DNA from: Bryoerythrophyllum caledonicum
Lineage: Eukaryota; Streptophyta; Bryopsida; Pottiales; Pottiaceae
DNA length: 64,000 nt
Assembly (NCBI GenBank): GCA_963971425.1
Contig: OZ020517.1
Span: 14,789,297-14,853,296 of the forward strand
Direction: 5' to 3'
Shown: positions 1,470-24,803 of the stretch, piece by piece
How positions within the stretch are numbered: the first letter of the stretch is position 1
Layout: each line of letters begins with the position of its first letter
The notes under the pieces: generated by a model
Database searches by the model: none
Told to the model about the DNA's origin: nothing
What the model saw: only the letters and a program-made list of their open reading frames with translations
Translations under genes and position numbers: made by a program

Positions 1470-1823
1470 ACACTACACCGTTCACTGAATATAGTGTAGA
1501 CTAGACTATTTGAAATTTCCTACACTAATTTCATTAAACGCAAATTAAAGTGGTCCACTTCAATTTTCCATCCACATCAAATCATGTCCATTAGAAATAG
1601 TGTGGCTTGTTTCAAAATAAAACACACGGGAATTGATGTGGATAAGTTTTTACAAGTTGTACTCAAAACCAAAATTATAATACAATAACATAATAAAATA
1701 ATAACATAATCTCTTATTATAAAAGAATTCAGGATGAAGAACACGTCGGATGTAAAACACGTCGGATGGATGAACGCGCCGATGAAAAGTCGCAGTTAGG
1801 GTTTTATCAGTTATGAGTTTCGG

Positions 1824-1962
1824 TGCCTCCTGCTCAGGTGCGGGGATTGAAACGGTGACCACCTACGATCCTTCATCCGAGGAGTTCGTCATCAACACTC
1901 CGTGTGAATCAACACTCCGTATGAATCTGCTCAGAAGTATTGGATTGGAGGCGCTGCACAGG
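1824..1962 (+). pseudogene. Captured acyl-CoA oxidase exon fragment
   Basis: The translation contains GIETVTTYDPSSEEFVINTP followed, after an 18-bp local duplication that shifts the frame, by ESAQKYWIGGAAQ. This matches the conserved block of peroxisomal long-chain acyl-CoA oxidases (ACX2/ACX3 type), flavoenzymes that perform the first step of beta-oxidation. The exon begins after a CAG acceptor at 1816-1820 and stops at CAG|GTCTGTG, a preserved donor site, so it was taken from genomic DNA rather than from mRNA. A one-base deletion near GTGCGGGG also breaks the frame. It is a passenger in Helitron C and non-functional. Confidence 0.8.
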
Positions 1963-2174
1963 TCTGTGATGATGTTCCCTCAAAATTAGGGTTTGGAGCA
2001 AGTGCGTCAAATTATGGTCCTGATTCCGTTATCTCTCCATTGTAGCATGCTACCCATACGATCGTGTTCTCGCAACTCTCGATCAACGGGAAGAATGAAG
2101 GCGAAGCACAGGTGAAGAGCTCGGAGCAGCGCGGGACATTGCCACCGGCGCGTTTGGATATTGCGCCGGGTACC

Positions 2175-2472
2175 CGAATCAGAAGGTGCGGACCATCACC
2201 GCCCTGTCGCTGGCTGCTCTCGCGGAGGCAGCAGCTTCGTACGGTACCGAGAACTTCGATTCAGTGTTGAAGCCGCTGTGGAAGGGCATTCGGTCACACA
2301 GGGGCAAGGTGTTGGCCGCGTTCCGGAAGGCGATCGGGTTCATCATCCCGCTGATGGACGCGATGTATGTCAGCTACTACACGAAGGAGGTGATGGTGAT
2401 CCTGACCAGGGAGTTCCAGTCCCCGGACGAGGAGATGAAGAAGATCGTGCTGAAGGTGGTCGGTGTGGCCAT
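2175..2472 (+). pseudogene. Captured SF3B1 (splicing factor 3B subunit 1) HEAT-repeat fragment
   Basis: About 97 codons, from [19 protein letters not shown] through [16 protein letters not shown] and [16 protein letters not shown], match the HEAT-repeat region of SF3B1, the U2 snRNP core protein that recognises the intron branch site. The match ends abruptly at VLKVV and is followed by unrelated AT-rich sequence. There is no ATG start; the open frame only appears to begin at a GTG codon. A few conserved positions have drifted. It lies in sense within Helitron C. A separate, downstream part of the same gene occurs in Helitron A at 24041-24132. Confidence 0.88.
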
Positions 2473-2624
2473 CGGCATAAAATTTTTGTGCTTTTTGTTA
2501 TTTGGAAATAAAATCTTCAAGGAAATTATCCAAGAGCACATCACTAAAAGTTTTGGCATCGAAATGAGTTGTCAGCTAAATGAATGTGATGACAATTTTA
2601 TAATAGACAACAGAATGAACCAGA

Positions 2625-2755
2625 AAAATCACCTGGGAGCAGATGATATCTTTTGCGGTCACATCCTTGAAGTGCTCCAAGTGCTCCTTTGGAACAGCAT
2701 ATTCATTGCAAAACTGGCCTGCAATCAATGAAGCCAGGTTGATCTTTCGGTAGAG
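2625..2755 (-). pseudogene. Exon-like fragment of an unidentified gene
   Basis: The minus strand encodes [19 protein letters not shown], then [20 protein letters not shown] and IICSQ, ending at a good donor, CAG|GTGATTTT. Composition and splice signal look like a genuine captured exon in Helitron C, antisense to the other cargo. I do not recognise the family. Confidence 0.45.
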
Positions 2756-2832
2756 GGGGTGTGCATTCAGTAGGGAATATGCATGTAGATGTGTCTGTAT
2801 GGTGTGTGATGCTTGATCATGGATTGATTTAG

Positions 2833-3354
2833 TTCTCTGGATGAATCGGTGCAGTTGCTCAAGAAATCGGGGTGGAAGGAAGGCACAGGCCTTGGTGACA
2901 CAGAGCAGGGCAGGTTGGATCCAGTGGAGACCCACATGAAACAGGACAGGCGGGGCATAGGGGCAGATTTGAAGAAGAAGAAGGTGGTACTGAATTCTGA
3001 AGAGAGGCGAAGTCAGAGGAAGGCCCTTGAGGTAAGCATGCACCCACATATTCGAGAATGAAAGAAAGTTGTTTCTCTCCGTGGTGATAGGTTTCGGGTC
3101 AGAAATGATACTTTCAGTTGACAATATGTATTTTGATTCAGTGGAAATTATCAAAATACGGTAATGTTTTTGGGCTATTTGTGAGCTAAAAGGTGGTGTT
3201 TTTTTTGTGTGAGCAGGAGACGGAAGAGGGTGAAAAGGAAAAGGTGTTGAAAGCTCTTGCTAAAGCCGAACGTGAACGAGAGCACGCCCTCGCTGCTGCG
3301 TTCTACAGAGAATTTTGGCGATTATTGCGACCTGTAGCTGTACAGTACCTTTGA
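2833..3354 (+). pseudogene. Captured 3' end of a D111/G-patch domain gene (two exons)
   Basis: Exon 2833-3031 begins after an AG acceptor and encodes SLDESVQLLKKSGWKEGTGL then GDTEQGRLDPVETHMKQDRR, the glycine-rich G-patch, an RNA-processing module that activates DEAH helicases. The intron 3032-3216 (GTAAGC...GCAG) is retained. Exon 3217-3354 continues in frame with a Glu/Lys-rich helix (AKAEREREHALAAAFYREFW) and ends at TGA. All 66 plus 45 codons are open, so this part could still be spliced and translated if transcribed from elsewhere, but the N-terminal portion is missing. It is Helitron C cargo; the retained intron shows DNA-level capture. Confidence 0.8.
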
Positions 3355-3811
3355 GTATTGTACTATACACCAAATTCTTTCCAGAATTTACCAAGGTTGG
3401 GAGTCGCCCTGCCAATGTAGGGACCTCCACATTTAGGAAGACAACATATCACATTTTATTCTTCCGTTATAGTGCAGGACACTAAATGTCACACGATCAG
3501 AAAACTAAATAACGGTTCTGTTCACCTTGGCTTAATCAAGTGCTCAATCACGGCGTTGATTTAGAGGCATCAACGGTTCTGTTTTTCTGCAATTGGCTTT
3601 CGTAGAAACGAGCTTTTGGATGAAAACGGTCGCAATTCGGGTTTGCGACAAGATGATAATTTCTCATGATCTTCATACATTGGGGACAGGGACGGGGAGG
3701 GGGACGGGGGACGGGGGGACGTTGGATTGGAGGGAAAGGGCTAGGGACGGGGAGGTGGGGACTCAACACAAAAAAAAATGTTGTGTCCGGAGGACATGGG
3801 TATCCCACTAG

Positions 3812-4572
3812 TCTATATATATAAAAGAATACAAGATGAAGAACACGTCAAGTGGATGAACATGTCAGATGTAAAACACGTCGAGCTTGGATGAAAAAGT
3901 GGTGCGAAAGTTAAAAGTTATAAATTTTAACTCCCGGTCACGTGACTCTCTTTCTTGATTTTGACCTCTCCATGTGCACGGTGATGCACTCTTCTTGACT
4001 CTTGATATTAGGTAGTAACCTAATGACTCTTGATTTTGACCTCTTGATGTGAAGGGTTTTCTCCTCCTATATTAGGTAGTTACCTAATGACTCTTGATTT
4101 TGACCTCTTGATGTGAAGGGGTTTCTCCTCTTGTATTGGGCAAGTGGTACTTATGTGCACAAAGGGTTGATCAAAATGCAAATGTAAAGTAAAAGTACTT
4201 TATTTTTGAAGTGGATTCAAGCTAGGATAACGTTTACATGCACTCCAATAATATATGTACTTTTCCAATTAGATTTGATTTGAGCTTATAGGTATTAAAA
4301 TACAAAACATACAAACGTAAATTTAACACACCACACTCCGCTCTCCCAGTCGGGACAATGGGCACTAAAAGTTAGGGTTTTGGATAAAAGGACAGGGCGG
4401 GGACGGGTACGGGGGACGGGGGACGGGGGACAAGGGGACGGGGAACAAGGGGACGGGGACGGGGGACAAGGACGGAGGGGACGATGGATTGGAAGGAAAG
4501 GGCAAGGGGATGGGGAGGTGGGGACTCAACACAAAAAAATGTTGTGTCCAAAGGACACGAGTACCCCATTAG
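3812..4572 (+). mobile_element. Short non-autonomous Helitron D
   Basis: It starts TCTATATATATAAAAG directly after the CTAG of Helitron C and ends with a hairpin (GTGTCC/GGACAC) and TTAG|T at 4569-4573; TTAG is a one-base departure from the usual CTAG. The 5' 80 bases and 3' 60 bases are homologous to Helitrons A, B and C. There is no gene cargo; the interior has two tandem copies of a block containing 'gactcttgattttgacctc' (about 4020-4130). A GGGGAC-repeat tract fills 4390-4480. Length is 761 bp. Confidence 0.8.
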
Positions 4573-4880
4573 TAAAATAATAACATAATAAAATAATAAC
4601 ATAATAATATAATAACATAATAATATTATTTTATAACATAAGAATATAACATAAGAATATTAACATAATATTATAATATAATATAACATAATATAATATA
4701 ACATAATATAATATTAACATAATAATATAACATAATGATATAACATAATAATATAATAATAACATAATAATAACACAATAACATAATAATAACATATAAT
4801 AATAACATAATAACATATATTATAATATTAATACTATATATAATAATAACATATATAATAATAACATATTACTATTACTA
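4573..4880. repeat. AT-only microsatellite of ATAACATAAT type
   Basis: About 300 bp of imperfect ATAACATAAT/ATAATA units with essentially no G. The same repeat lies at 1670-1709 just left of Helitron C, so the two tracts were one before the Helitrons inserted. Confidence 0.85.
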
Positions 4881-5113
4881 CTATATTAATAACCAAAATT
4901 GATGTGGTCCACATCAATTTTCATCCAAAACTAGAATTGATGTAGTCCACCTCAATTTTCATCCACATTACCTATACCTCCACACTATATTCAGTGAACG
5001 GTGTACCATATACTCTCCGACAAGCCACCATGTGATTAAGCACGTGGCTGCCGTTGAATTGGAACATGGATGAATATTGAAGCCACTGACAAGCGGTCAA
5101 GCGTTGAAACGGA

Positions 5114-5422
5114 GCACAATATTCCGCTCCTATACTTGCCACGGGAGGGCGCCCGCGGGCAGCGAAGCAGTGCGGGCAGCTGCTTTCTGAACAATTGCCC
5201 GTGGGCAATACCCGTTTCTGCTGCGGCGTGGCTGAGCGAAAAGATGTGCGAGGAGGGCAGAGGCGATGACAACGACGACGAAATTTAGGGCTCGGCATAT
5301 ATGGGTGGGTCAGAATCGGAGGCGGGTATCGCCCAAGGGCAATTCTTAAGAAAGCAGCTGCCCGCACTGCTTCGCGGCCCGCGGCTCCCTCTCGTGGCAA
5401 GCGTAGCAGCGGAATATTGTGC
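5114..5422. repeat. GC-rich long inverted repeat (100-bp arms)
   Basis: Arm 1 (5114-5214) and arm 2 (5323-5422) are reverse complements at roughly 85-90 percent over their full length, from GCACAATATTCCGCT to GGGCAATACCCG, with a 108-base loop. The arms are much more GC-rich than the surroundings. A transcript of either strand would fold into a long, nearly perfect hairpin. It could be a foldback transposon, an inverted duplication of a captured exon, or a small-RNA precursor. No target duplication was recognised. Confidence 0.8.
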
Positions 5423-6180
5423 TTCCCGATGAAACCATCATGAACAGAGACAGGCTGGACAAGCTCGAAACCCGGCCCAATCGCCAGACCCACCGCATCG
5501 TCAGCCGATCCCGGAATCGCCAGATCCAGAAGCCGACACCCGAGCCTCAGATCCACGGCTGGAAAACAGGAACCCGGTCAAGGCCACGGCCCAGCATCCC
5601 GCGCCGGGGTCGATGCCGTGCTCCTCACAGAACTTGGCACTAGTGGTCTGGCTTCCGCACTAGCCGCCCTAGATGTGGATGATCTCACTCACCGCGTCTG
5701 GCTGGAAACATTCACTCGCTCGCTGCCGCAACTAACGCGAGAGGCAAGCGGGCAGGGGATAGTCAGAGGCCGCGAGAGAGGGAAGCTGTGGGTGAGCTTT
5801 GGCGATGGAGATCAAACACCGCGCTTCGTTTATACCGAGTGCAGAGGCCTGAAGGCAGCGGAAGGAAACAGGAAAGCTCTAGCGACGAATGCACACGGTA
5901 AGATCTCAAAACGCGCAGTAAGCTTCACGTTGTTGTTTCTGTGTCTTATTCTTCACTTCGTATCTTACAGTAGTCGCACTGTGGTCGGCAGAGGCAGAGA
6001 TCGCCTCCCATCTCTGACTAGGGGCTCTCTGTGCCCTTTCTGATTCCAGCGGCCTTGTGCGCGGCGCGGCGACGTTCCTGGCCTGGTCTGCGTAGACTAG
6101 TTCGGAGGCCGACTCATTGAAGATTGCAGACGGGATCAGGTGCTTCAGAACTGCGCGGCCACCGAGGTAAGTGGTCATTT
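5423..6180. other. GC-rich exon-like region, gene not identified
   Basis: This stretch is GC-rich and partly open on both strands. On the minus strand 6040-6165 reads LGGRAVLKHLIPSAIFNESA then SELVYADQARNVAAPRTR, and on the plus strand a good donor (GAG|GTAAGT) lies at about 6163-6170. It may contain first exons of a gene, possibly 5' untranslated exons of the ROCO gene, or captured fragments. I cannot assign it to a family. Confidence 0.3.
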
Positions 6181-6536
6181 CTCGGTTATCCTTAGAACCC
6201 TTGTTATGTAGAGGTTGCTTGGCTTTTATGTTAGGAAGGAGTCCCAAGTTAGTGGTCAGCCTACTATCAGATCGCAATACTAGATCTAGGAATAGTCGAT
6301 GTGGTCGAACTCAGAAGACGACTACTTCTGTTTTCAGTCGTTCTTCGAATGCTTGCACTGTAAGTTGCTAGATGTCTTCGGCGAAAAGAGGGAGTCAGAG
6401 AACAGTGTGTGCCAATTGGGTACACTAACCACCTTCTTCAAGTCTACCCCCCACTTTCCTTAGCTCCACATATGGCAGAGGTACCTGAGACAAAAGACTG
6501 TACCTTTAACCGCTGGTATGGACTATCGCCCTCTAT

Positions 6537-6775
6537 TTAAATCCTTAAACGTTAGTCGGGAGTCGTATATACAGGCACTTACTTCACCCTGCATAGCACA
6601 AAAAATGTAGTAAAGTTTAGCAAGACTAACACGTTTGGATTGAAGGTTTTTCAAGTAACATCTTTCATTTGGAGGTCATTTCAACATGTGAACCTTATCA
6701 TGTTCGAATATGACACCATGCATAAATGTAGAATACTGTGGCAACCAGTGGCACCATCTGACGTTTAAGGGTTAA
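6537..6775. mobile_element. MITE with TTAACCCTTAAACG-type ends
   Basis: About 239 bp bounded by TTAAATCCTTAAACGTTAG and CTGACGTTTAAGGGTTAA. The interior ('ggattgaaggtttttcaag', 'catttggaggtcatttcaac') recurs at 31560-31640 (inverted), 31790-31900 and 23035-23120. The conserved termini and dispersed copies mark a non-autonomous DNA transposon; superfamily undetermined. Confidence 0.6.
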
Positions 6776-9502
6776 AGAAGAATTGTAGTTCCGCGGTACA
6801 TGCGATAATTTCTGAGTTGAAGAAATAGGAGTAGTACTGTAGAGCTACGTTTCTTCCCTGAACTGAAGGGAGAGAGTGCATGTTGGCGGTGTAAGGTACG
6901 ATCTCGGTTTCAGGTACTTCAACACTGTAGCCGTTCACATGATACTGCCTCGTTGTGGAGAGTATTTGAGTTGCACTCACGAACATGATATGCTCACATC
7001 AGCTACTCATTAGCTTGAGTTCCCAACTTCCGATACTCACAACCTTCTGGCTCTATGTGCCGCAGCGCTCAAGCGGCTTACACTAGTTGGACGAGATTGT
7101 TTGGTTCTCAAGCTCAAGAGATTCTTCCTTCCTCTGTTAAGTGTTCTCTTTAGCGGCATGTTTTCGCGCTTCTCAAGTTACATCTGTTTGTTCTGTTTCC
7201 ATGTCTGGAGGCTTTGACGAAGTCGTGGTATCTAGTCTCTGTTACACAGATCTAGACTTCAGAAGGTGGCGGTTGCTTTGTCGTAATCAGTACCGTTGTG
7301 CCAGAAAACTTTGAGGTCGCTCTTAATATGAGCAGGTGAGATTAGTCAGAAAATAGACTGCAGTAGTATCGTAATATCTATCGATCTTAGTGTCTGCTTT
7401 ATTTTCTGTAAGAAAGATCAAAGTTCGTTCCGTTCTAGAGCTGACGACATCTGCAAGGACTAAAGAATGAGCATTTTCGTGTAGCAGACCGGGGTGACCA
7501 TGTGAGTGGCATCAATCCTTACTTCTAGATTGATTGCGTGCGAGGAAAGCATTGAAACTGGGTCCTCGTTACTGATCTGAGTAGAAGTCCAAAGAGTCTC
7601 CTGACGACATGTACTGACGATGCTTTTTGTTTTGAATGTGATTCGGTTCGTTGTCATTCTACTTGGGATGCTTGTTCTCATTGTTTTTATCCTGAATCGC
7701 AGGTTGACGAAGTCGATGTCGTGATTGATCCCAAGGACGTAGAGCTGTCCACAGCGAGATCTTGTGGTGCAGAAGGTGGGATAGTGCTTGCAGTAAGTTA
7801 TCTCATGCTTTTCAACATGCGAGGGTGGCAACACAGTCCAACAGTAATCCTGCATTCATCACGCTTCATATACACTTTTTATCCTTTAGACGCCAAGTTT
7901 CTGTAGTGATTTCTGGCTTAGAGATAAGATTTCTGCTTTCTGCCTTCACCGTTAACTCCTTTGAGGAACCTGTGTGTGCAGGTCAGAATGTGAATAAGGT
8001 GGAAACAACTAAAGAGAGTTTCCATAAACCCGCAGGTATTAAAATGTTTTACTCGAAGGAACGGTCCCGATTGAAAACCAAAGTCTAAGCGTTCCAGCTC
8101 CTACCGGGCTGAACTGTACGACATTCAACTCATCTAGAACAGCAAGACAGCATCAAAAGCGCTCGTCTGTCGAGGCATGATGAGTTCCAAAAAGGAAGAG
8201 ATAACTGAGACGATGGTGAGTTGATTTCATCTTGGTCCTTTTTGTGGTTCACAGGTTAGAACAGTAGCTCGGTCCGAGAAAATTCGTACCTATAACTGGA
8301 AGGTATGATTTCCGTTCTTGGCGTGGTCATATTCACGATTGATCTCATGAAAACACTCACAGATGGCTAGGACTACTTTGTGTTGTGGTTAGAGACCTCC
8401 AAGCTCTTCAATTGATCTCAGAACCAACGTTAACGTAATGTAACGTTGGGTGGCTTTTCAAGTAAATACGCCATACTCGAAATTTGCGTTTATTTTATTA
8501 TGTTTTGATTTTAGATTTCAAATTTGATTTCAAAATTTTGATTTTGATTTAATTTAAATTAGTTTATTAGTAGCTCTTTTATTATGGTTTGTTAAGGATT
8601 TATTGGGGTATATGATCATATACAGGATAGCCGAGTTTCTGATCACCGGACGAAAATCAACTTCGCTGGATGGTACTCAAGTGGTCCCGTAGACTTCCAA
8701 GTTTTCTCCTCTTTCTTCTCATGGATTTTGATTAGCATTTTCTGTGCTGTCATGTGTAGGGTTTGGAACAGAAAGAGACTCTGTAGGAGCTTGCTGCATC
8801 TATGAATCAAGCAACTGTTTGATTAGATATATTTCATCAATTTGTTCATCCCGAAGGCGTCCCGGAGTGCCAGCAATCGGATGAACAGTTGTTGGTAACA
8901 TTTACAAGCATGCGATAACCAGCTTTCCTCGTCATCTTGGTTTTCATGTAACCATGGCTTACTTTGAGGCAGCACTTTGAAGACGCCGGTGAGTACCTCA
9001 GCAACTTAACCTCTGATCCGTGCCACATCTGTCCACCAAGTGAACATCTAGTTTTCTTGTAATCTGCAAATTGAGTTGACTGTCTGAAAATTTTGCTTAT
9101 CCTATTCACAGTTGTCCATGAATCTGGGTAAGATTGTTCAGCGAGACATGCGAAATGTAGGTTGGATGCTAATAAACCCTCACCTAAAAGTTCTGGAAAG
9201 GGTGAAGTGTAATGAGTAATAAACAATAGTTGTCGCTCAATGGCTTATGTTACTGTACAGTTGATGTGCGAGGAAAAAGCGCATGTGTGTCCCAGTGATG
9301 AAAGAGGAGGATCAGAGTCGAAGTTCCGGAACATCTTGAGTTGCAAGCATACCATGTTTGATTCTGTTCTGAAGTTTGAGGTTGGGGTTGTTACAGTGAT
9401 TGCAGGTCATCGACAACATCATTCTTTTGCGCCATTTGGCTATGAGCACGTCCACGGAAGCTATGACCGCGTCTGAAAGCATTCCTTAGTAGACGACCAA
9501 GT
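6776..9502. other. Upstream region of the ROCO gene, no confident gene
   Basis: No open frame with recognisable homology. Several good splice-like motifs suggest 5' untranslated exons of the ROCO gene may lie here, but none can be fixed from sequence alone. About 8430-8600 is AT-rich. Confidence 0.35.
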
Positions 9503-12500
9503 ATGCCAGCAGCAGCCCCGGAGGAAGTTGAGGACTGTAAGGTCCTTGAGCCAATCTGCAGTCCTTTCCGGGTTGCAGGTTTTCATCGATTCTCACATAC
9601 CGAGTGTGTGTTTGATCTCCATATTCTTCACACACGAGCGACATTGAGCGCGCTTTGGACATTGAGCAAGGAGCTGAGAATGATGGTGCGGTGGCTTGCG
9701 TTCTTGTTGTGGTTATTCAGCTTTTCAACTTGGAAGGCGTTCTTTGTTGGCCTGTTTTGGAAGGCCCCCTCTCTTGGCGTCGCAGATCATGGTGTTGGGG
9801 AGCGGGTGTTGTCGGCCCATGATTGTGGGTTGCGATCGGATGTTGAAGTGGATGCATCGTCAGAACATCGAAGCAAACTTTCAGATAATCTTGCGAAAGT
9901 GCTCTCAAACATTTCATCAAATGAATCGGTGTCCATTAACTATGATGTTAGCGAATTTGGATATGGGCCATTGACATTCGAGGAGGATGCACAGGTGAAG
10001 GAGATCTTGGTAGCCATTGCCTCTTCCACTGTCGTTAGAAAGTTGGACTTATGGGACATTTGGCCAATGACATGGGAGGGAGTGTCAGAAGCCTTACTCT
10101 CCAACCGAAGTGTGAAAATATTATTAATTCGGGAATATGGGTTAATTGAATGGGTGTCAAGAGCGTTGTTGGAGAATACATATCTGGAGGATGTTTTTTT
10201 TGCTCTAATCGATAATGAGGGTGTGGTGTTGGTGAGCAATGTGTTGTGCCACAATCGGACTCTCAAGCGCCTTCATGTAGGTCTGTTCCAGATAGATGAA
10301 GAAGGATGGAAAGTGTTCCTTGATCCACTTTCAAGAGGTGATGACAATAATTCGGTCCTTCAGCACCTAGGTTTCTGCGTTCGACCAAGAGACGAGTCCC
10401 ATTGTGTTGGGCTCATTGGCAATATGGTTCGCAGAAATACCTCCCTCCTCTCTTTGTCCATTCGGAGTCATGTGGTTGATGGCACACGTTTATTTTCAAG
10501 TATTGGTGAAGCTCTTCATTTCAACAAGCAACTCTCATGTTTCAGTATTGGGTTGACCCGGACCGCATGTCATGGATGGAAGAGATTATTTACATCTCTG
10601 GTACCGGATGCACAGGGGCAACAGGCAAATATTAGTCTGAAACATCTCATTCTCTATGTTGATGGTGTACATAAGGTTGTGGAATATGATCACGATTCCT
10701 TGTATGACATGCTTCGGAGCAATAGATCCTTGATAAAATTTCATTGTTCTGGAGCGCCCTTCGACAAGAGAGTCCATATAGTTCAGCTCTTGGAAGCTTT
10801 GAAAGGCAATAAGTGTTTGGAGATATTGGACTTTTCTCATTGTAAAGGTGTGAAAGGTCGGAAAGTGTTGGGGGCAATTATGGATCTTCTTGATGAAAAT
10901 AACTACTTGAAGGAGATCATCTTATTTGAAACACCGTTGGGGAATGATGGAAGTGGTGAAGTTGTGAAGGCAGTTCTAGAGAAGAAGGCAAAGGATCGGT
11001 CATGGGAAGTGGTGCAAGGCATGGCAACATCTACACCCACGTCTGGAAGGGTTTTCTTGTGTGGCGAGCCATATGCAGGCAAGCTTGTTTTCTTCACATT
11101 TGTTTGGTTTGAAAGCCTATCTATATTGTTGCTAAAGTTTGTATTAAGATTGATAGACTTTGAAAGAATGTTGTATCTTTGATTGGCTATGAAATTTGAG
11201 TTGTAAGCATGTTAGAATTTTGAATGTGATTGCTGGAATTGTAGAGAATGACTTGTTTCCGTCTGATTAAACATCTAATGCATTTGTTCTAAGATTGAAT
11301 AAATTATTTACTTGGTGAAGTAGTTTTTGAACTTGGAATTGACTTGGTTTGATACACTGCTGAAATTCAGTAAAGAGTGGTAATTCAACTATATGTTTGA
11401 TCATTGTTACACTTTGTTAATTTAACCATGTACGAGAGCAATACATAACCATGAGGATGTTCAACTAATTTTGAACATGCCTCCATTAAAAATCATGTAG
11501 ACAATTATGTTTACATATTTATAATACTCTTCAATTTCTTCAATCTACCTACTTCCTATGGTTGTACATCGCCTTGTGTAAATTTCCCATACCAAACTAT
11601 TAAGTGTAACAATTGCTTACTTGACTAATCACCCATTGAGTACATGTTTTGATGTCACAATACACTAATCTAATCCTCTCATATGCAAGAGTGAATTGAA
11701 TTGGATATTTTCAATGACTTGAACATAGTATCTTACAGGTAAAACTACTCTTCGCAAGACAATCATGGAAAATTATTTGAGTGCAACTCTAAAACGATCA
11801 AGGACAACAAAAATGAAAGCGTTGTTTAAGAGAAGAAAGGGAGATGAGACACTTCCCAGTGGCAAAGGTATTGATGAAAAAAGAACTCGAGGAATTGAGG
11901 TTCACTACTTGGCATGCGATGATGTCGCCATGACTATATGGGACATGGCTGGACAAGAAGAATACCATGCTTTCCATGATTTGGTGGTTCCAAATCTTCC
12001 AATGAGTGGAAGTTGTTGTTCATTTGTGCTTGTATGCAACCTTGCATACCATGATGATAAACCACATCACTTGAAGAACATGGAAGAGATCATCTCGGAG
12101 CTCCAATATTGGTTGAAGTTCATCGTTTCCAACACAAGAATTTCAAATCTATATCAACCTCATGTGACAATAGTGTTCACTCACATTGACGAGATGTGCT
12201 CCTGGCATCCAAGTCGTTTGCTTCCCAGGATTAAGGAGTTGAAGCAGAAATTTGATGGGTTCGTTGAATTTGAAGATCGTGATTTTATGATTAATGCAAA
12301 GACGTACGAAGACTCGGTTGATGGCGTGTTCAATGCCATGGAAAACCACTTGCGAGGTCTATTGGCAAGGGTGCCCAAAACTATTGCAGCTTGTGACAAA
12401 CTACAAGGGGTCATTGCCAAGAGGATCAAAGACAATCCACGTGAGTTGGTTGTGGATTGGGAATTATTTTCCAAGATTTGTGACGAAGTACCAGAGTTAC

Positions 12501-14835
12501 AAATGATGGATGCATTTGATCCAAATTTGGTGAAGAGGAGGCAAGAATTTGCTGCTATGTCTCTACATGATAGGGGCCATGTGATGTTCCATGAAGACCT
12601 CAAGATTGTCATTATGAATCCCCACTTGTTTTGTCATGACATCATTGGTGAGCTCATGAACGGGGAGAAGATGTCAAGGTACAAGCCAAATGTGCAATAT
12701 GGCATTACAAAGGGCGATCTTGAAATGGTATTGGCAAGCACCCTTGTAGTTGTTGAACACAAGGTGGCCTTGGAGGATGTATTGCAAGTCATGCAAAAGA
12801 TGGAACTTTGCTATGAGCAAGAGGATGGAACTCTTATGATTCCATCGATACTATCGGATGGACATGGGAAGTTCGATTGGCCAATGAAGCAGAAGCTTAG
12901 ATCCATCTACAGGTTCAGTGGAAGGAGGTTGACAATTGATGATAAAGAGAAGACAATCCTAAGTCCTGGTTTTTTCCCTCGATTGCAAGTAAGTTGTCAT
13001 GTTCTCCCACATGCATACGTTACTTGCTTATCAGAATCTTGTCATGTCATAATTATTGAATTGGTGGGTTGATCTTAAATATTTGTGTGGGTTTCAATTA
13101 ATATTGTCATAAGAACTTAATTTCGTAAATGTTGATTACATATTGTAGTGCTTGATGACTTCTTGCAAACTTAGTTGTTTGAGGGGTTGTGTAATGTGTG
13201 TTTTATGTCTTATATTTCATCATGGATGGTGAAGTTTCAAACCATCAATATATGTTAGATATAATAAAATTGTAAAAGTTGATATACTTGTCTTTTGTAA
13301 TTAGACAACGTTAGTGGAGAAGTTTTTTGTTGCGTGTATCACAATTTAGTCTTTATTCTTTACTTTGAGTCTTCATTTCATCTCCATTCCTTGAACTTTG
13401 TTATGCATCAGTTCAGTGTTCAGATTTCAATTTGCTTGTGCAGGTTTTTCTACGGAAGGATTTTGGAAGGGCATGTGAAATTATGAAGAACATGATTAAG
13501 TTCGTTCACAATGGGATTGAGGTCATTATTGAGTACAATGGATCTCCTGCTTTTGATATTGATATAATGATGCGGTCAAATGGAAACGAAAAGTCCATGA
13601 ATGAGCTTGATTCTCTTCAAAGGCGCCTCATCAATATCATTGTTACATTCTGTGCAAATCGTACATTGGGGTGTCCAGGAGTGAAACTTGTGGAGCTTAT
13701 CATGCGGCCATCATGTGTAGAAGATCTTGTTGAGCACAAATACAGGTCCAAGCAAGTTGTTATGGTAGAGTTCTTGAGACAAATGGTGTTGCTCCATGGT
13801 GACCTTGCTTTGAAGTTTGATTGGCCTAGTGAGAAGCCGATACTACATATGGGTTGTGATGACGCTAAAACATTGCTAGGTGAGCAAATGTCTTATGACG
13901 TGTCGACTGAGCTTATGTCTAATCTGAAGACCATTGAATGTCAAATTTCGTCGAGCAAGGGATCAATGGATGCCATTGGGAATGCAAGGACAATGGGCAT
14001 TTCAAAGGTTTCAAAACCATCACATGTGACCAACGAAGACTTGTCAATCAAGTTGGAAAGGCTTGGAGTGACAATGATTCAAAGATTTGATAGAATCGAT
14101 GAGACATTGGATTGTAGATTCAACAGGCTTGAAGACACAATGCAAGAGATCAAGTTGCTTCAAGAGAAGTTGTTGCCAAGAGTATGTAGGAGAGTGGATG
14201 AGTTGATGACATTCACGATGGAGTTTCAACAACATAAATATCCTCGCCTTCCTCATTTCAGGAAGCGTGAAAATGGTCGTCTTGTAGTCAAAGTGATCCC
14301 TGGGATGCAAGAGTATGTTCTCCACTTGTTGTGTGAACACAAAGATGGATTCCACATTGTCGAAGATCAGGAAGGATGTGAATTATCAATTGGTACGGAG
14401 TCAACTCGAGCATTTCAAATTGCTCTTAGACGTGGACTAAAGATTTTGACAGTCTTGTTGAAGGTGGGGGCACATGTTGGAGCGGGCATGGGTTCAATGG
14501 TCCCAGACCTTGGAAAGGTACCCCTACTTGTTTTGGATACACCGGGGATCGGACTTGATGAGGTGAATGTGAGTACAACACGAATTCTAATGGATGAAGT
14601 GAAGCCACACGTTTTACATACAGAAGAGAAGGCTGCTGAGCAATGGTTGATAGATGTATTGAAAGACAAGTGCCCAACTAGCCTTGATATCAAAACCAAG
14701 TTCAAGCTTCAAAAGGTCAGGTACCTAGAGGAAGATGGTGGAGCTGGATGTGTGGCATGGATTTGTGACAAGCACTTTGTGGAAGGTATACAAAGCAAAA
14801 CCTTGGTATTGTTGCCTAGTGACTTGGCTAATTGA
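9503..14835 (+). CDS. LRR-Roc-COR (ROCO family) protein
   Basis: Three coding exons, 9503-11078, 11739-12988 and 13444-14835, join in frame to about 1,405 residues. The first in-frame ATG after a TGA is at 9503; a hydrophobic segment (about residues 60-85) may be an anchor. Residues 120-510 are ribonuclease-inhibitor-like leucine-rich repeats. The Roc GTPase follows: P-loop GEPYAGKTT (about 520-528), switch II DMAGQEE (about 594-600) and THID (about 673-676) in place of NKxD. The COR domain spans roughly 770-1050 (LSPGFFPRLQVFLRKDF), then a coiled-coil-prone stretch (RFDRIDETLDCRFNRLEDTM) and a C-terminal domain of unknown role. No kinase domain is present. ROCO proteins are dimeric GTPases acting in signalling; ligand and partner are unknown. 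Intron 1 begins with GC rather than GT and interrupts the P-loop codon for glycine. Confidence 0.9.
11079..11738 (+). other. GC-AG intron splitting the P-loop
   Basis: The donor is GCAG|GCAAGC and the acceptor TCTTACAG|GTAAAACT. Only this junction restores the Walker A lysine and two threonines (AGKTTLRK); reading on into the intron gives a hydrophobic frame ending at 11182. The GC donor with CAG before it and AAG after it is the usual form of this minor intron class. Confidence 0.85.
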
Positions 14836-18576: not shown

Positions 18577-18792
18577 CACTAAATATCACTTTTAGTGTGT
18601 TGCCCAGTAAATGACTTGTAAATGCTATAAGTTTTTACGTTAAGTGAATATTTTTACCAACTATGTTTATAATGATCCTTTATTTGAATACTATAGAGAG
18701 TTGTGCTCTTGGTAAAAATTGGCATCAAGAGTAAAAACTTATTGCATTTACAAGTCATTTATTGGGCAACACACTAAAAGTGATATTTAGTG
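18577..18792. mobile_element. CACTA-type MITE, copy 1
   Basis: About 216 bp with long terminal inverted repeats: CACTAAATATCACTTTTAGT at the left and its reverse complement at the right, extending about 60 bases inwards on each side. The interior resembles the elements at 28762-28982 and 59723-59929 (shared 'gctataagtttttac' and 'agattttta' motifs). CACTA ends place it with CACTA-superfamily MITEs. Confidence 0.75.
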
Positions 18793-19347
18793 TACTAAAT
18801 ATTTCTACTTACAACTATTCATATATCGATTGAGTTGTCTTGAACTTCAAGATTTCATGCATAGTCTACCAAACATTTTTGGGTGGTCGTGCACTTATGG
18901 GTTGTTCTGAGGTGTTTTATGTAACATACTAGTGGGGTACCCGTGTCCTCTCGACACAACATTTTTTTGTATTGAGTCCTCACCTCCCCGTCTCCTAGCC
19001 CTTTCCCTCCAATCCATCGTCCCCTTGTCCCCCGTCCCCGTCCCTTTTTTTTTGGTGGTTTTTCTTATCATGCTGACTTGGCAATAGTTGTTTTTTCCAA
19101 CCTGACCCTAGTTAGGAATTACTGATCTCCAAGGTTTGAGATTAGGGTTTCAGGGGGTCGATGCTCTAGTTGGAGGTTTGGGGTTGAGTTTTTGGGGATT
19201 TCGGGTTACCATATTGTTGATGGGTGAGATGTGATTGCATTTACAATGCAACAGAAGGTGTTGGAGCTTTTGCAACTCACTGGCCTTGATATTTGAGAGG
19301 ACACCTTTCTGATTGTGAGTTCGTAGTAGATCTGGAATTCTTTTATT

Positions 19348-19584
19348 GTGTCCGTTTCTCAGTTTGTGTGGATTAGGTTTCGACATAGTATGATGATTTT
19401 GTGCCCTTTGTCACCAAAGATGATGGATACAAATGACTTTACAGTAGTCATTTGTCAAGTTTGTGCATTCATGCACCTATTATGCTATGCCGACTCTGGG
19501 AGCAAGAACTTTAGGTCAGTGTTACTAATCAATATGCATTCGGTAGTTACGAATCGGTATGCATTTTCAGTAGGGTTAAAGTAG
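19348..19584 (+). repeat. Shared Helitron 3' segment, copy in B
   Basis: The block 18960-19600 is duplicated at 21810-22500 in Helitron A with few differences. Both copies keep a 78-codon open frame (MSVSQFVWIRFRHSMMILC...) antisense to the element. Conservation here follows from recent common origin, so I do not call it a gene. Confidence 0.6.
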
Positions 19585-19689
19585 GCTGAATTTGGGTTAA
19601 AGTTCAGGTTAACGACCCGTCATCACCACTATTTTGCCACACTCCTGCAAGTGCGTCCTGTGGTCTTGATGAGAACTCAGCTTCGTCGT

Positions 19690-20115
19690 TATCATCAATG
19701 GAAATACCATTCTTCTCGCTGGGGTCTTGATTTACACTGCTCATCCTCATCATCTTCAGCTTTTAGATTATTGTCAGTCGCACTGCTACTTCTTGAAGGT
19801 CTGGGCATGGTCGGAATTTGTTGGCTAGGACCACCAATCAGGCCACGCTTCGCGCCATTCAAGGCCCAGTGACCTTCAGGCATCGTTAAAATCGCAGAGA
19901 GCCATGCTCATGGGAAGACAGCTCCTCTTCCACTTTGACGTGATTATTAAACAGAACAGGTACTTGCTTATTTCCGTTGGTAAAAACGGATCCAGCAGCG
20001 GCCGGTGATGGACGCCAAGGCTCTCCGATCCTGGCGTTCCCTTCCAGTTTAGGCCGCCAGGAACCGTCGCTTTCAGCTCTACTTCAGTGATATCTTCATC
20101 AAGACTTTTCACCTG
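19690..20115 (-). pseudogene. Exon-like cargo of unknown family
   Basis: On the minus strand one stretch reads VKSLDEDITEVELKATVPGG then LNWKGTPGSESLGVHHRPLL (after a CAG acceptor), and a second reads GAKRGLIGGPSQQIPTMPRP with an acidic run EDDEDEQ, ending REEWYFH and a stop. The second looks like a C-terminal exon. I do not recognise the gene. It lies downstream of the HMG-CoA reductase piece in Helitron B. Confidence 0.4.
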
Positions 20116-20389
20116 ATATTAACGCCAGAGGTTGTCAATTTGAGTGGACAGACTGACAACAAATAGCCGGCATCTTAACTTGAAATCACAGCATATCATA
20201 CAATAGCGAAATTTTATGCAGAGAGGCTGTTTCAAACTCAAATTTCATTGCAACAAAAGATCACGGCAATCAGAAAACCACACGAAAAAAATCCAGAACA
20301 TCAACATCACCCTGCCACTACAAATCAAAACCCCCCCTCCTTCCATACAAAACCAACACTTTTGTTCACACTGTGAACATTGTCATTAC

Positions 20390-20875
20390 ACGATCCGCAA
20401 ACGCACGAACCTGTTGAACATGAACATGTGCGAGATGGTGTCGAAGTTGTTCGGATCTTCCAGAAAGAACTTGAGCTCTGCACAGCGCTTGACAGTCGGG
20501 AAGCGAACGACGGGCGCTCGCGCCATACCATCTTGCAACAGGATGCTGCTGGCGCCACCGGACTGATAGATGGTCCGGTGTGAGCTCAACCGCGCGGCGG
20601 CGGATGGCCGCGGCGCGCATCGGATCTCCCAACTGCGTCTCCAACGTGGAGCTCGACACCTCCCCGCTGCTCACAGCGCGCGCAATGTCCTCGTACTCAT
20701 TGTCCTCCAGCCCGATCCCCATCAACTGCACGGGCATGGCCTTCGGACCCGCCGGAGCCATCTGCATCGCCTCACACCCCGGGCTGCGCGTCTCATCGTC
20801 TAACTCCCACCCCGACTTCCCGATGAACCCCTGCGCGTAGTCGATCCCAAAGAACCCTATCAGGTAGACCTTGAA
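20390..20875 (-). pseudogene. Captured HMG-CoA reductase fragment
   Basis: The minus strand encodes VYLIGFFGIDYAQGFIGKSG, the second membrane segment of plant HMG-CoA reductase, then a variable linker, then [18 protein letters not shown] and [20 protein letters not shown], the start of the lumen-distal catalytic part. After an internal deletion and frame change it resumes with [19 protein letters not shown] and [15 protein letters not shown]. The enzyme makes mevalonate for isoprenoids at the ER. Here the catalytic core is mostly missing and the frames do not join, so it is a passenger in Helitron B, lying directly downstream of the MenG piece. Confidence 0.88.
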
Positions 20876-20884
20876 ACCCGAGCA

Positions 20885-21265
20885 CCTCCTCAGTCTCACT
20901 CCTGTTGAAATCCAGAATCGCCGCCTTCTTCCCCGGCTTCAGCACTCTCCGAATCTGCTCCAGCGCAATCGCCACGCTCGCCACGTTCCGCAGCCCGTAC
21001 GCCATCGTCACGGCGTCGAAGCTGTCCTCCTCAGACGGCAGCGCGAGCGCGTCCCCGAGGCGCCAATCGACCTTGGACGCGAAATCCCGCCGGGCGGCGA
21101 CATCCAGCTGCTCCTGTGCGTAGTCCAGCCCGACGACGCTCCCCGAGGGGGGTTTCACTTTCTCCGCGAGGAGAAAACTCACGTCGCCGCTCCCGCAGCA
21201 GATGTCGAGCGCGTTATCTCCTCGCTTGGCGCCGCTACAGGACACCGCCATGCACTTCCACACGC
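20885..21265 (-). pseudogene. Captured MenG/UbiE-family methyltransferase fragment
   Basis: About 120 codons show the class I methyltransferase fold: AVSCSGAKRGDNALDICCGS with SAM-binding motif I (DICCGSGD), SVVGLDYAQEQLDVAA, DALALPSEEDSFDAVTMAYG, LRNVASVAIALEQIRRVLKP and AILDFNRSE. This matches demethylphylloquinone methyltransferase (MenG), the last step of vitamin K1 synthesis in plastids; a mitochondrial COQ5 origin is less likely but possible. The N-terminus and C-terminus are absent, and it runs into the HMG-CoA reductase piece at about 20875-20885. Helitron B cargo, sense orientation. Confidence 0.85.
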
Positions 21266-21384
21266 GCAGTGGAAACAATCGAGTTTCAATGTTCAATGTT
21301 TATGAATTCAATGTTTATGATTCAATGTTCAATGTTCAATGTTTATGACTGATGCAAAAACCCTAACTGCGATTTTTCAGTCGG

Positions 21385-21560
21385 GTATCCCAGCGCCTTG
21401 AGCAGGAGCGCGGCCTCGTGCGGCGTGAGTGGGCACCCGCCCCGCTTGCACTTCTCCTCCCCGTCGATCTCCTTCTCCTTCCAGTGCTTCATCCCGTACC
21501 GCATCTGCCTCAGCTCCTCGGACTCCGCGGCCGACAGCCCGTAATCACGTTATCTCGACG
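21385..21560 (-). pseudogene. Captured plant O-fucosyltransferase fragment
   Basis: The minus strand gives [20 protein letters not shown] and [13 protein letters not shown], then after a one-base slip in a G run [19 protein letters not shown]. The pattern HWKEKEI...CPLTPxE...LxALGY is a signature of the plant GT106/DUF246 O-fucosyltransferase family (Golgi, cell-wall glycosylation). It is frameshifted and truncated. First cargo segment of Helitron B. Confidence 0.75.
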
Positions 21561-22604
21561 CAGGGATGCTGTTTTGCAGGGATGCAGGGAAGCGCTTGGC
21601 CTGCTTGGAACAAATCAACGTCGGTGCCACCACGACCTGGAAGCAGAAGTAGGCGCTTTCTCGACGCGTTCTGTTTTCATCGACGCACCACTTTTTCATC
21701 CAATCTCGACGCGTTCATCCATCGACGCGTTCATCCACTGGACGTGTTGTTCATCCTGAATTCTTTTTTAGATATAGACTAGTTGGGTACCCGTGTCCTC
21801 TGGACACAACATTTTTTTGTGTTGAGTCCACACCTTCCCGTCCCCTAGCCTTTTCCCTCCAATCCATCGTCCCCCCGTCCCCCGTCCCCTGTCCCCCGTC
21901 CCCCGTCCCCCGTCCCCGTCCCCGTCCCCATCCCTGTCCCGTCCTTTTTTTTATGGTTTTTCTTGCCATGCTGACCTGACAATATTTGTTTTTTCCAACC
22001 TGACCCTGGTTAGGAATTACTGATCTCCAAGGTTTGAGATTAGGGTTTTAGGGGGTTGATGCTCTAGTTGGAGGTTTGGGGTTGAGTTTTTGGAGATTTC
22101 GGGTTACCATATTGTTGATGGGTGAGATGTGATTGCATTTATAAAGCAGCAGAAGGTGTTGGAGCTTTTAGAACTCGCTAGCCTTGATATTCAAGAAGAC
22201 ACCTTTCTGATTGTGAATTCGTAGTAGATCTGGAATTCTTTTGTTGTGTCCGTTTCTCAGTTTGTGTGGTTTAGGTTTCAACATTGTATGATGATTTTGT
22301 GCCTTTTGTCATCAAAGATGATGGATACGAATGACTTTACAGTAGTCATTTGTCAAGTTTGTGCATTCATGCGCCTATTATGCTATGCCGACTCTGGGAG
22401 CAAGAACTTTAGGTCAGGGTTACTAATCAATATGCATTCGGTAGTTACGAATCAGTATGCATTTTCAGTAGGGTTATCATGAGCAGCTCAATTTGGGTTA
22501 AAGTTCAGGTGAAGCGAGGGGCGTTCTTCGTTCGTATATGTTTCGGTGCCTGATTATTACTGTTTTTGACACAAGAGGAGTTGTGTCTTAGGGTTTCTAG
22601 GTTT

Positions 22605-22785
22605 TTTGGATTTTGGGCATCATGAAGTTGGACGTGAACGCGCTGCGATACCTATGCGCAAAATTGGATACAACGCTGGGATTCAGCAAGTTCTGCGCTT
22701 CTTTGATAAAGGTCTCTCTTTTGCTGGAGTAGAAAGCATCTACAACCACATTGATCCACTTGAGCAATTTCTCCGATTTCCTGCA
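22605..22785 (-). pseudogene. Exon-like fragment, unknown family
   Basis: After an acceptor (TTGCAG|GAAATC) the minus strand stays open and encodes KSEKLLKWINVVVDAFYSSK then RETFIKEAQNLLNPSVVSNF before running over the RIO2-like sequence. The composition resembles a real alpha-helical exon. Not identified; sense with Helitron A. Confidence 0.35.
22622..22711 (+). pseudogene. Possible captured first exon of RIO2 kinase
   Basis: The plus strand reads ATG then KLDVNALRYL, identical in pattern to the N-terminus of plant RIO2, an atypical kinase of 40S ribosome maturation, but only 11 residues match; what follows (CAKLDTTLGFSKFCASLIK) does not. It lies antisense within Helitron A. The short match makes this tentative. 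Confidence 0.35.
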
Positions 22786-24040
22786 ACCCAAATGAAGGAA
22801 GAGAAAGTTAATTTCAACAAAATTGATCTAAACTGTAGGTGTGTCTTACAACAACCTGTGATGATGAATTGGTTTCTTAACCTTAAGAAAGAGTTTACAT
22901 AAAATCAGTTGCCTATTCTCCTTTGAGCTGAATATTACCGATATCTGATAACTATTTAGAGATGATGATTTTAATCCTCCAATTCCGCTTTTAAGTTAGA
23001 ACAGCCCACTTGTGGCCACATAATTCGCATGTGTGATGTGATATTTGAACATGATAAGGTTGGTTGAGATATTGAAATGACCTCCAAATGAAAGATGTTG
23101 ATTGAAGAATCTTAAATGGCCACATAATTCGCAAGTTCTTAATTTTCTCAAGGTACAAAGTAAAGGTCCCCGAATTCAGATTCCTGCAACTGTTTCGCTC
23201 ATGCGTGGTACTGAAGCAGGTAAACTTCGATTCTCATAACCGAAGCATTATCAATGCAACCATTCAAACTCCTCTTTCTCAGCAAAAGATGACATGAAAA
23301 CTAAATTCATAAAAATTACAGTACAATATCCATCACAGCACAATCTCTGATGTTCTCATGCATTTAACCCTAGCTCTGATGCTCCAAAGAGACGACTTCA
23401 ATTGTAAAAGCTGACGATCATCAATGCTATCATACAAACTCCTGTTCCTCAACCGTAAAAACCTTCAAGACAATCACAATAGAATATGTCCGTCCTCTAA
23501 CCCTAGCTCCAATGCTTCAAAGTGAGACCATTGATTCGCAACACCACCTCGCAATACCATCCAGAGCTATTCAAAGTTGTAAGCGAAGGGCAAAAAGGCT
23601 GCGATACCAATCCTTGATAAACCCAGGAGTTTTAACACTAAATCCGACCTGTTCTCTCGATCCATCGCACTCGTTGGCCCATCCTCCATCCTCCGAAAAC
23701 AACAACCCAGCAGCAGCTCCTGCACTCACACGCTCTTCACCACCTCGGATTTGCACACAAACGCATTAAATTGAACCATAGCATGATCAATTCATACGAT
23801 TGAAGGGAAACTGAAACTGAACCTAGTAAATTCCTTCTCACCACCTGGTACAACTCTGTAAAACGTGAAGACTCCTCTTTTTCAAATTCTAAATCTAGCG
23901 CTACACCTTCACCTGAAAATCCACCACCGTGTTCATGTCAACCCTGCAAACATGATGATGCAGGAAAATCCAGATGTGGGACCGCGGCTACAACCAAAAC
24001 CGCATCTTCATCATCGAGGGCACAATGGTCCATCGCAGGC

Positions 24041-24132
24041 TCTAGCCGGGCTCCTCCAGCCGGGCATCGATGTCCGAAGCTCCCAGGTTCGCCACCACTT
24101 TCTCGACGGTCTCCATCACCATCCGAATACTT
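24041..24132 (-). pseudogene. Captured SF3B1 fragment, second locus
   Basis: The minus strand reads SIRMVMETVEKVVANLGASD then IDARLEE followed by a stop. This is the HEAT-repeat block of SF3B1 lying about 80 residues downstream of the part carried by Helitron C. It is in sense within Helitron A. The match ends at LEE, where SF3B1 would continue toward LIDGILYAF. Confidence 0.8.
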
Positions 24133-24364
24133 CTAGCGGTCGCATTTCCTGCCTGTCGCTCCAAAGTGTTCACAAAGACACGCAATTATAAGCAAAAAAG
24201 GCTCATGTGTGGTGTCTCTCGCTCTACCTTCTGCTCATACTTTGAAGTCTACGCTCTCGAGCAACTGTAGCATACTTGATATCAAAGATGAACTTCATTC
24301 TAAAACGCTGTAAAATGATCACTTTAAGCTTGTCGAAGATCACTCCGTGTCTGTGGTTTGACGG

Positions 24365-24710
24365 GAACGTGGAGGAAGCCGCCAACTTCTACGTGACGCT
24401 TGGATTCTGTCCATGAAGAAGACGCGCTCTCCGCACCACGCCATCGGGGAGCGGCTGAGGTGCACATTGCTGTGCAGAGGCGTCCCGAGGAGCTAGCGTT
24501 GCGAGGTGGGGTCGTAGAGCGTGACGGTCGTTGCGGGAGAGAAGTGCATGCCCAAGTGGTCCACGGTTTTCTCCGGATGCGGATGCAGGCGGCGGAAGTC
24601 GCACGTGATCGGGTTGCAGATGTCGAGATGCTCCGTGGACGTGAGCTCGCCCCAGCGGAAGCCGAAGCGGAGCAGGCCGTGCGAGGACATGAGCGTGACG
24701 TACCTGGACG
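24365..24710 (-). pseudogene. Captured F-box/kelch-like gene fragment
   Basis: The minus strand encodes SSHGLLRFGFRWGELTSTEH, LDICNPITCDFRRLHPHPEK and HLGMHFSPATTVTLYDPTSQ, then a second frame with SNVHLSRSPMAWCGERVFFM. The phrase 'LxICNPIT..FRRLP' is typical of F-box/kelch substrate adaptors of SCF ubiquitin ligases, where it opens a kelch blade. Family assignment rests on this motif only. Frameshifted and truncated; near the 5' end of Helitron A. Confidence 0.5.
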
Positions 24711-24803
24711 CACCACTTTTTCATCCAAGCTCGGCACGTTCATCCATCCGACGTGTTTTACATCCGACGTGTTCTTCATCCTGAATTCTTTTATAATAAG
24801 AGA

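Follow-up and report, generated by a model that had tools for sequence, protein, structure and literature searches.

Gene-Carrying Helitrons in Oriented Head-to-Tail Pairs in the Moss Bryoerythrophyllum caledonicum

Introduction

The choice of targets by Helitrons and the assembly of several gene scraps within one element are open questions. Both are raised by a 64,000-nucleotide stretch of the moss Bryoerythrophyllum caledonicum (contig OZ020517.1; C4:14789297-14853296 of a 437-Mb genome in 894 contigs), hereafter the window, in which four Helitrons, designated A to D, stand in two abutting head-to-tail pairs. An earlier note, made from the letters of the window alone, had described A-D as a family of gene-fragment carriers dependent on a partner elsewhere. 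What mobilises such elements, where does their cargo come from, and how did they come to stand end to end? A-D are very probably members of one canonical Helitron family in which, in addition, insertion is directed in a fixed orientation at the ends of resident Helitrons. Loci fetched from the genome for comparison with A-D are numbered L001-L122.

Two Abutting Pairs of Helitrons

The first pair lies on the forward strand. Element C (1710..3811, 2102 bp) is a non-autonomous Helitron that starts with TC after a host A and ends with CTAG, and directly downstream of it stands D (3812..4572, 761 bp), a deletion-type derivative of an autonomous-type element that ends with TTAG before a host T. The second pair lies on the reverse strand and consists of the non-autonomous elements A (21779..24803, 3025 bp, 5′ end at 24803) and B (18929..21778, 2850 bp, 5′ end at 21778), both of TC...CTAG structure; A has a host A at its 5′ border and adjoins B with its 3′ end, while B, directly downstream of A, has a host T at its 3′ border. 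The borders given in the earlier note are correct to the base, as are the TC start of all four elements and the CTAG end of A, B, and C. The TTAG of D is a one-base departure from the canonical 3′ CTRR, and A-D otherwise have the 5′ TC and 3′ CTRR of Helitrons. The description of all four as lying between A and T is right at the outer borders of both pairs but not at the inner joints, which read G|T. At each inner joint, the 3′ end of one element touches the TC of the next, forming CTAG|TCTA at C|D (3808..3815, forward strand, C4:14793104) and at A|B (21775..21782, reverse strand, C4:14811046). A search with up to two errors found no copies of the ends in the window besides those of A-D.

The AT-rich repeat that surrounds C-D continues from one side of the insertion to the other. 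The same AACATAAT-type AT-rich repeat occurs in the C-D flanks (1665-1709 and 4573-4870) and with the D-type copies L087, L089, L093, and L095, and it is possibly a favoured target.

Recurrence of the Ends Across the Genome

Across the whole genome, a 33-bp 3′-end pattern matched 563 places (271 + 292) at up to two mismatches, and a 29-bp 5′-end pattern matched 444 (201 + 243) at up to one. The same patterns read backwards matched none. The 5′ pattern covers only ends that read TCTATAT..., the sub-type to which B and D belong; A and C have the other sub-type, TCTCTTATT....

The bases next to these ends were surveyed by eye. The 5′ survey comprises 37 evaluable ends, namely 40 scored places minus L082 and L083 (duplicates of the L081 locus) and the masked L101. 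Twenty-four are preceded by A and 12 by the 3′ end of another element, with an exact CTAG|TC joint in nine and an altered one in three (L103, L109, and L117); L092, preceded by Helitron-like sequence that ends with CTAG and has no clear hairpin, was classed as uncertain. In the 3′ survey, which took 30 of the 40 scored 3′ ends, 12 pass straight into a 5′ end, one of them (L018) lacking TC. The other 18 are followed by T in 17 cases and by G in one (L015). Insertion between A and T, with no duplication of the target, is the rule for non-tandem ends, with A before 24/24 5′ ends and T after 17/18 3′ ends. At L018, L103, L109, L117, and perhaps L092, TC or CTAG is altered, although the position at which the two ends meet is unchanged; these are decayed or imprecise joints. 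Among the 5′ ends, L081-L083 (C4:8638828, 8664890, and 8690952) are of D type, lie exactly 26,062 bp apart, and have identical flanks; they mark a Helitron-bearing segment duplicated in tandem, and a similar triplet of 5′ ends occurs on C1 at 6658564, 6668306, and 6678048 (9,742-bp spacing).

Orientation and Independence of the Joints

CTAG stands immediately before 114 of the 444 genomic 5′ ends at up to one mismatch, a low estimate since the single mismatch allowed must also cover the four bases by which this pattern is longer. When the first 100 exact 5′ ends were listed, 59 followed A, 34 followed CTAG, and seven followed other bases, two of these being GTAG and CCAG; 34 tandem ends per 100 compare with a chance expectation of 1/256 (6e-56). 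No head-to-head joint was found in the whole genome at up to two mismatches.

The partners at a joint are unlike each other, and no joint recurs as a long unit. At 12 tandem loci, with about 1.5 kb compared per side, the best two matches between partners at each locus never reached 95% over 200 bp. Among the 66 pairs of these loci, none shares 400 bp or more on both sides of the joint, four share at least 400 bp upstream but less than 150 bp downstream, and three have 150-335 bp in common on each side, with 80-84% identity. The upstream elements end in at least three ways, with GGGTACCCCACTAG, with GGGTAACACTCTAG, or with the autonomous-type end. Transposition of ready-made pairs as composite units was considered and rejected, as 0/66 pairs have at least 400 bp in common on both sides. 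On C1, three CTAG|5′-end joints of the same orientation lie within 1.5 kb (32374631, 32375556, and 32376059), consistent with a four-element array.

An Autonomous-Type Relative

A Rep/helicase (RepHel) partner elsewhere in the genome, as predicted by the earlier note, was found at L061. The element (L061:571-5492, 4.92 kb) is flanked by A and T, and a scan of its three Rep/helicase reading frames detected both expected domains, Helitron_like_N (Rep; 2e-62) and PIF1 helicase (1e-30 and 2e-34). Its 30-bp ends are identical to those of A-D at 25-29/30 positions on the left and 24-26/30 on the right. It starts with a D-type left end, and its first 588 bp (L061:571-1158) correspond to D 1-578 at 94.7% identity. 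Because its frame is interrupted, L061 is termed autonomous-type and not active.

Helitron_like_N has at least 152 matches in the genome, with 150 of 492 candidates scored, and the 30 loci compared fall into three sequence groups, L061 belonging to group 2. The L061-type 3′ end occurs at 66 genomic places at up to two mismatches, including three group-2 RepHel loci (L061-L063), and its control gave 0. RepHel groups 1 and 3 were rejected as partners, as L064, L065, and L066 (8.5 kb each) lack the A-D ends by pattern. Near group-1 RepHel genes, L064:7854-8223 and L066rc:7346-8501 are about 89-92% like D 120-546.

Captured Gene Cargo

Elements A, B, and C are mosaics of pieces that are 89-98% identical to places on different chromosomes. 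The earlier note was right that three elements carry pieces of host genes, and the pieces of each element come from several chromosomes and not from one contiguous gene. In C, a sense piece of acyl-CoA oxidase (1802..2103, forward; L071, C12:3172454-3172744, 91.9%) is followed by a sense SF3B1 exon piece (2176..2460, forward; L069 on C2, 96.1%; L070, 95.8%; PDB SF3B1, E 5e-44), unmatched filler (2461-2487), and an antisense gene-like piece (2488..2723, reverse; L067, C3:20633322-20633557, 97.9%) that by eye comprises an exon and an apparent intron, a Pfam scan of this exon giving no match. The last piece is a sense part of a G-patch gene with its intron (2720..3533, forward; L074, 88.9%; L068, 95.3/93.3%; C7/C4; PF01585, 9.5e-16).

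The pieces in B all lie on the reverse strand. In the direction of the element, they derive from an O-fucosyltransferase gene (21382..21546; L079 on C4, 97.6%; gene PF10250, 4.1e-38), a MenG/UbiE-type methyltransferase gene (20869..21266; L078 on C8, 96.7%; gene PF01209, 5.6e-48), an HMG-CoA reductase gene (20247..20868; L075 on C15, 94.9/90.4%; PDB HMGR, 7.9e-10; PF00368, 1.5e-6), and a gene-like source with a long reading frame and no Pfam match (19619..20248; L077, C2:35832393-35833026, 97.6%). The host MenG protein is 82% identical to its named match in Ceratodon purpureus, 68% to that in Sphagnum magellanicum, and 64% to that in Marchantia paleacea; among the 120 of 2531 matches listed, none comes close to 100%. 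In A, a piece of an F-box-type beta-propeller gene (24401..24695, reverse; L122 on C3, 95.6/96.4%) is followed by a C10 piece with no Pfam match (24141..24333, no strand assigned; L120, C10:3642113-3642305, 97.4%), a second SF3B1 piece (24050..24125, reverse; L069 on C2, 97.4% over 76 bp), and a multi-copy stretch (22995..23818, no strand assigned) that is closest to L121 (C15:6017395-6018293, 98%) and common to at least eight further places. A PF06983 match in A (24246-24413, 4.7e-6) spans 22 residues only. Of the gene names proposed in the earlier note, the weakest is that of the F-box-like piece, whose source gene lies just below the Pfam cut-off for a beta-propeller family (PF03478, 8.4e-6). 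RIOK2 and SIZ1 were considered as further captured genes and are not claimed.

Judged by the strand of the reading frames, all four pieces in B run along the element, and one of four in C is antisense. The sources overlap by 0-4 bp at the cargo joints C 2100-2103, C 2720-2723, B 20247/20248, and B 20868/20869. Capture from DNA, as the earlier note had concluded, is supported by the intron sequence kept in several host-gene pieces. It is clearest in HMG-CoA reductase, where the piece by eye crosses the exon end (GT donor) and comprises an exon, minus 195 bp, and most of the next intron. Capture of this piece from spliced messenger RNA was rejected, since the missing 195 bp are internal to the exon and the intron is retained, which indicates a deletion. 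Several cargo-matching places are themselves Helitrons (L072, L073, L076, L080, and L119), and L068 is bordered by one; part of the cargo has therefore passed between elements, as stepwise capture predicts. Within L068, about 271 bp (769-1039) that are not in C show near-mirror frames on both strands and an edge overlap of about 10 bp, which looks like a foldback element inserted in that G-patch copy.

Taken as a whole, the interpretation in the earlier note is supported. It had named as contrary outcomes ends that do not recur and cargo that is contiguous in a single gene, and neither was found. It missed the genome-wide occurrence of oriented abutting pairs, the SF3B1 piece in A, and the G-rich, strand-specific array that lies within the 3′ end.

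Terminal Structures

The 3′ hairpin, spacer, and CTAG of C lie at 3784..3811 on the forward strand, and the corresponding 3′ ends at 4544-4572 (D), 21779-21807 (A), and 18929-18957 (B), all from DNA folding. A short hairpin some 10-12 nt from the 3′ end, as is typical of Helitrons, is present in all four. The 6-bp stem ascribed to all four in the earlier note is obtained for D and, in the centroid fold only, for A; the stems of B and C have 5 bp, and the stem of L061 is likewise in the 5-6 bp range. The folds depart modestly from shuffled sequence, with z values of -0.9 (A), -0.9 (B), -2.6 (C), and -3.3 (D). The spacer is not uniform: A and B have GGGTACCC, C has GGGTATCCC, and D has GAGTACCCC.

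Ahead of the 3′ end of C, a G-rich array with a G-quadruplex-type motif occupies 3682..3753 on the element (forward) strand, and D, A, and B have similar arrays. Thirty copies were surveyed; having been picked for their similarity to the terminal 82 bp of A, they do not form a random sample. On the element strand, 26 of them have a four-G-run motif at 82-300 bp from the 3′ end, and none has it on the opposite strand. In a control stretch at 482-700 bp from the 3′ end, the motif is present in 2/30. The array is absent from L061, the sole autonomous-type element inspected. Such an array could help the transferred strand to stop at the 3′ end.

Origin of the Abutting Pairs

The recurring ends, the hundreds of copies, the chimeric gene-derived interiors, and the Rep/helicase relative with matching 30-bp ends constitute the demonstrated part of the reading of A-D as one canonical Helitron family. 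In Helraiser, the left end is essential, and the hairpin near CTAG terminates transfer (PMC4778049). A RepHel of the L061 type would mobilise A-D in trans as single strands that start at TC and stop at the hairpin and CTAG. Gene pieces would be acquired from DNA step by step, with little or no homology at their joints, and D would have arisen from an autonomous-type element whose first ~580 bp became fused to a G-rich 3′ module at a common 24-bp stretch. RepHel is established to nick before TC, and the left end of a resident element is therefore itself a site at which RepHel nicks, and does so on just one of the strands. Most likely, a loaded RepHel acts at the nick site of a resident element, at A|TC or else at CTAG|T, and places the newcomer in one fixed orientation. 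With A|TC as target, the newcomer would come to lie upstream in the same orientation, giving the CTAG|TC joint, the outer A, and the outer T that are observed. A resident right end (CTAG|T) as target would lead to the same joint and the same outcome.

Several explanations compete with oriented insertion at resident ends. That A-D are decayed clusters of pseudogenes, segmental duplicates, or chimeras of the assembly instead of transposons is scarcely credible: their interiors are indeed gene scraps and some copies lie in segmental duplications, but the ends are common to hundreds of copies while the fetched loci differ in their interiors and flanks, the flanks obey the A/T rule, and a RepHel element has matching ends. 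The circles produced by Helraiser bear a precise CTAG|TC joint (PMC4778049), and rolling-circle transposition has been argued for with the head-to-tail junctions and the tandem arrays of plants and bats (PMC5876387). The abutting pairs might accordingly be rolling-circle multimers that arose through a missed 3′ stop, or dimer circles inserted as one unit. Such concatemers are disfavoured because the partners within the 12 tandem loci are unlike, as are C and D or A and B, and no joint recurs with 400 bp or more on both sides among the 66 pairs of loci; an origin of this kind is improbable.

Two further alternatives correspond to the two models offered for an abutting pair in maize (PMC2267711). 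In one, canonical insertions would be untargeted and use the AT that each resident A|TC end happens to offer. This would preserve the outer A...T flanks seen here, but a symmetric target should yield head-to-head joints about as commonly as head-to-tail ones, found here at 0 versus 114, and 34 tandem ends per 100 are unexpected in a genome of 437 Mb. Untargeted insertion is thus very improbable. In the other, insertion would be targeted at the resident 3′ border, CTAG|T, rather than at the 5′ border. This yields an identical joint in the identical single orientation, at the price of a non-canonical G|T target that departs from the A found at 24/24 non-tandem 5′ ends, and is a possible though rather unlikely alternative. 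Either order of insertion within the pairs fits the joint, so that A|TC and CTAG|T as targets cannot be told apart.

Other points also weigh against the preferred reading. No transposition event was seen. The head-to-head pattern requires two ends of the same sub-type, and head-to-head joints would form long palindromes that could disappear in the cell or during assembly, so that the absence of head-to-head joints overstates the orientation bias somewhat. The 3′ end of L008 (C7:9577225-9577306), one of the 30 surveyed, lies about 22 bp within the 5′ end of another element in the opposite orientation; this nested insertion means that elements inserting close to a resident end do not invariably take a single orientation. 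Some joints may be common through segmental duplication, as with the three D-type copies on C4. The RepHel-type 3′ end also stands beside gene cargo in L068 and L076. The RepHel frame of L061 is broken by two in-frame stops, one of which is perhaps intronic, and no fully open copy was shown among the three group-2 loci fetched.

As an extension of insertion at resident ends, it is tentatively suggested that these Helitrons home to each other via resident nick sites, that the family thereby expands into head-to-tail arrays whose units differ and carry genes, that skipping of a 3′ end lets the arrays feed further chimeras, and that the G-rich array may aid the stop. With its hundreds of ends, its 114 oriented joints, and its RepHel relative with matching ends, this one genome makes it possible to test in which direction insertion proceeds, what part resident ends play, and whether arrays feed capture.

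Relation to Known Helitron Systems

HelA of maize resembles A-D in its TC...CTAG structure, 3′ palindrome, several gene pieces per element, and stepwise capture (PMC3288121) and is unlike them in sequence and host; gene pieces were reported in more than 90% of 1,649 maize elements (PMC3288121). An intact CTAG was absent at 99/100 sampled internal 3′ ends in maize (PMC3288121), whereas it is kept at 11/12 clear joints of the 5′ survey here. At maize r1, an adjacent head-to-tail pair has the same CTAG|TC (G|T) joint and partners with different gene cargo, but it is a single pair, termed the first back-to-back case in maize (PMC2267711), compared with 114 joints at up to one mismatch here. Tandem insertions have also been described in bat, Drosophila, and maize (PMC5148889), and clustering of Helitrons by Yang and Bennetzen (2009, via PMC12477314). 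CentHel of rice is reported to form hundreds of elements arrayed in tandem (PMC10095026), like the tandems here; its arrays have been described as truncated and, in PMC5148889, as centromeric, whereas in the moss unlike elements are joined and spread over contigs.

As in the moss, non-autonomous elements and RepHel drivers of wheat Xuan-Feng are grouped by 30-bp ends and share a 6-nt stem and an AT preference; in wheat, inverse polymerase chain reaction on genomic DNA detected no tandem repeats of Xuan1, and activity was shown experimentally, while the present case rests on sequence (PMC13286980). Helraiser/Helibat likewise has TC/CTAG ends, a 3′ hairpin terminator, read-through capture, and precise TC-CTAG circle joints, but it is an animal family and its joints are circle junctions of one element, not joints between unlike elements (PMC4778049). 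Earlier publications thus cover the capture of genes and its stepwise course, the clustering of Helitrons and their tandem arrays, and also the CTAG|TC joint (PMC3288121, PMC2267711, PMC12477314, PMC5148889, PMC10095026). The present analysis adds this Helitron family with a likely partner, the places from which its cargo came, and a count of oriented joints; no published count of Helitron joint orientation was seen in the open-licence literature consulted.

Other Features of the Window

An LRR-ROC-COR gene of the TORNADO1 type occupies 9467-14835; its COR-A match (1.5e-4) lies below the cut-off, and 28 relatives, some named TORNADO 1, are 29-42% identical. Two similar reading frames (40398-41237 and 55105-55725) lie in a duplicated block of ~15 kb with a repeat spacing of about 14.6-15.4 kb, and the frame at 40398-41237 is lipocalin-like (Lipocalin_2, 2.9e-14).

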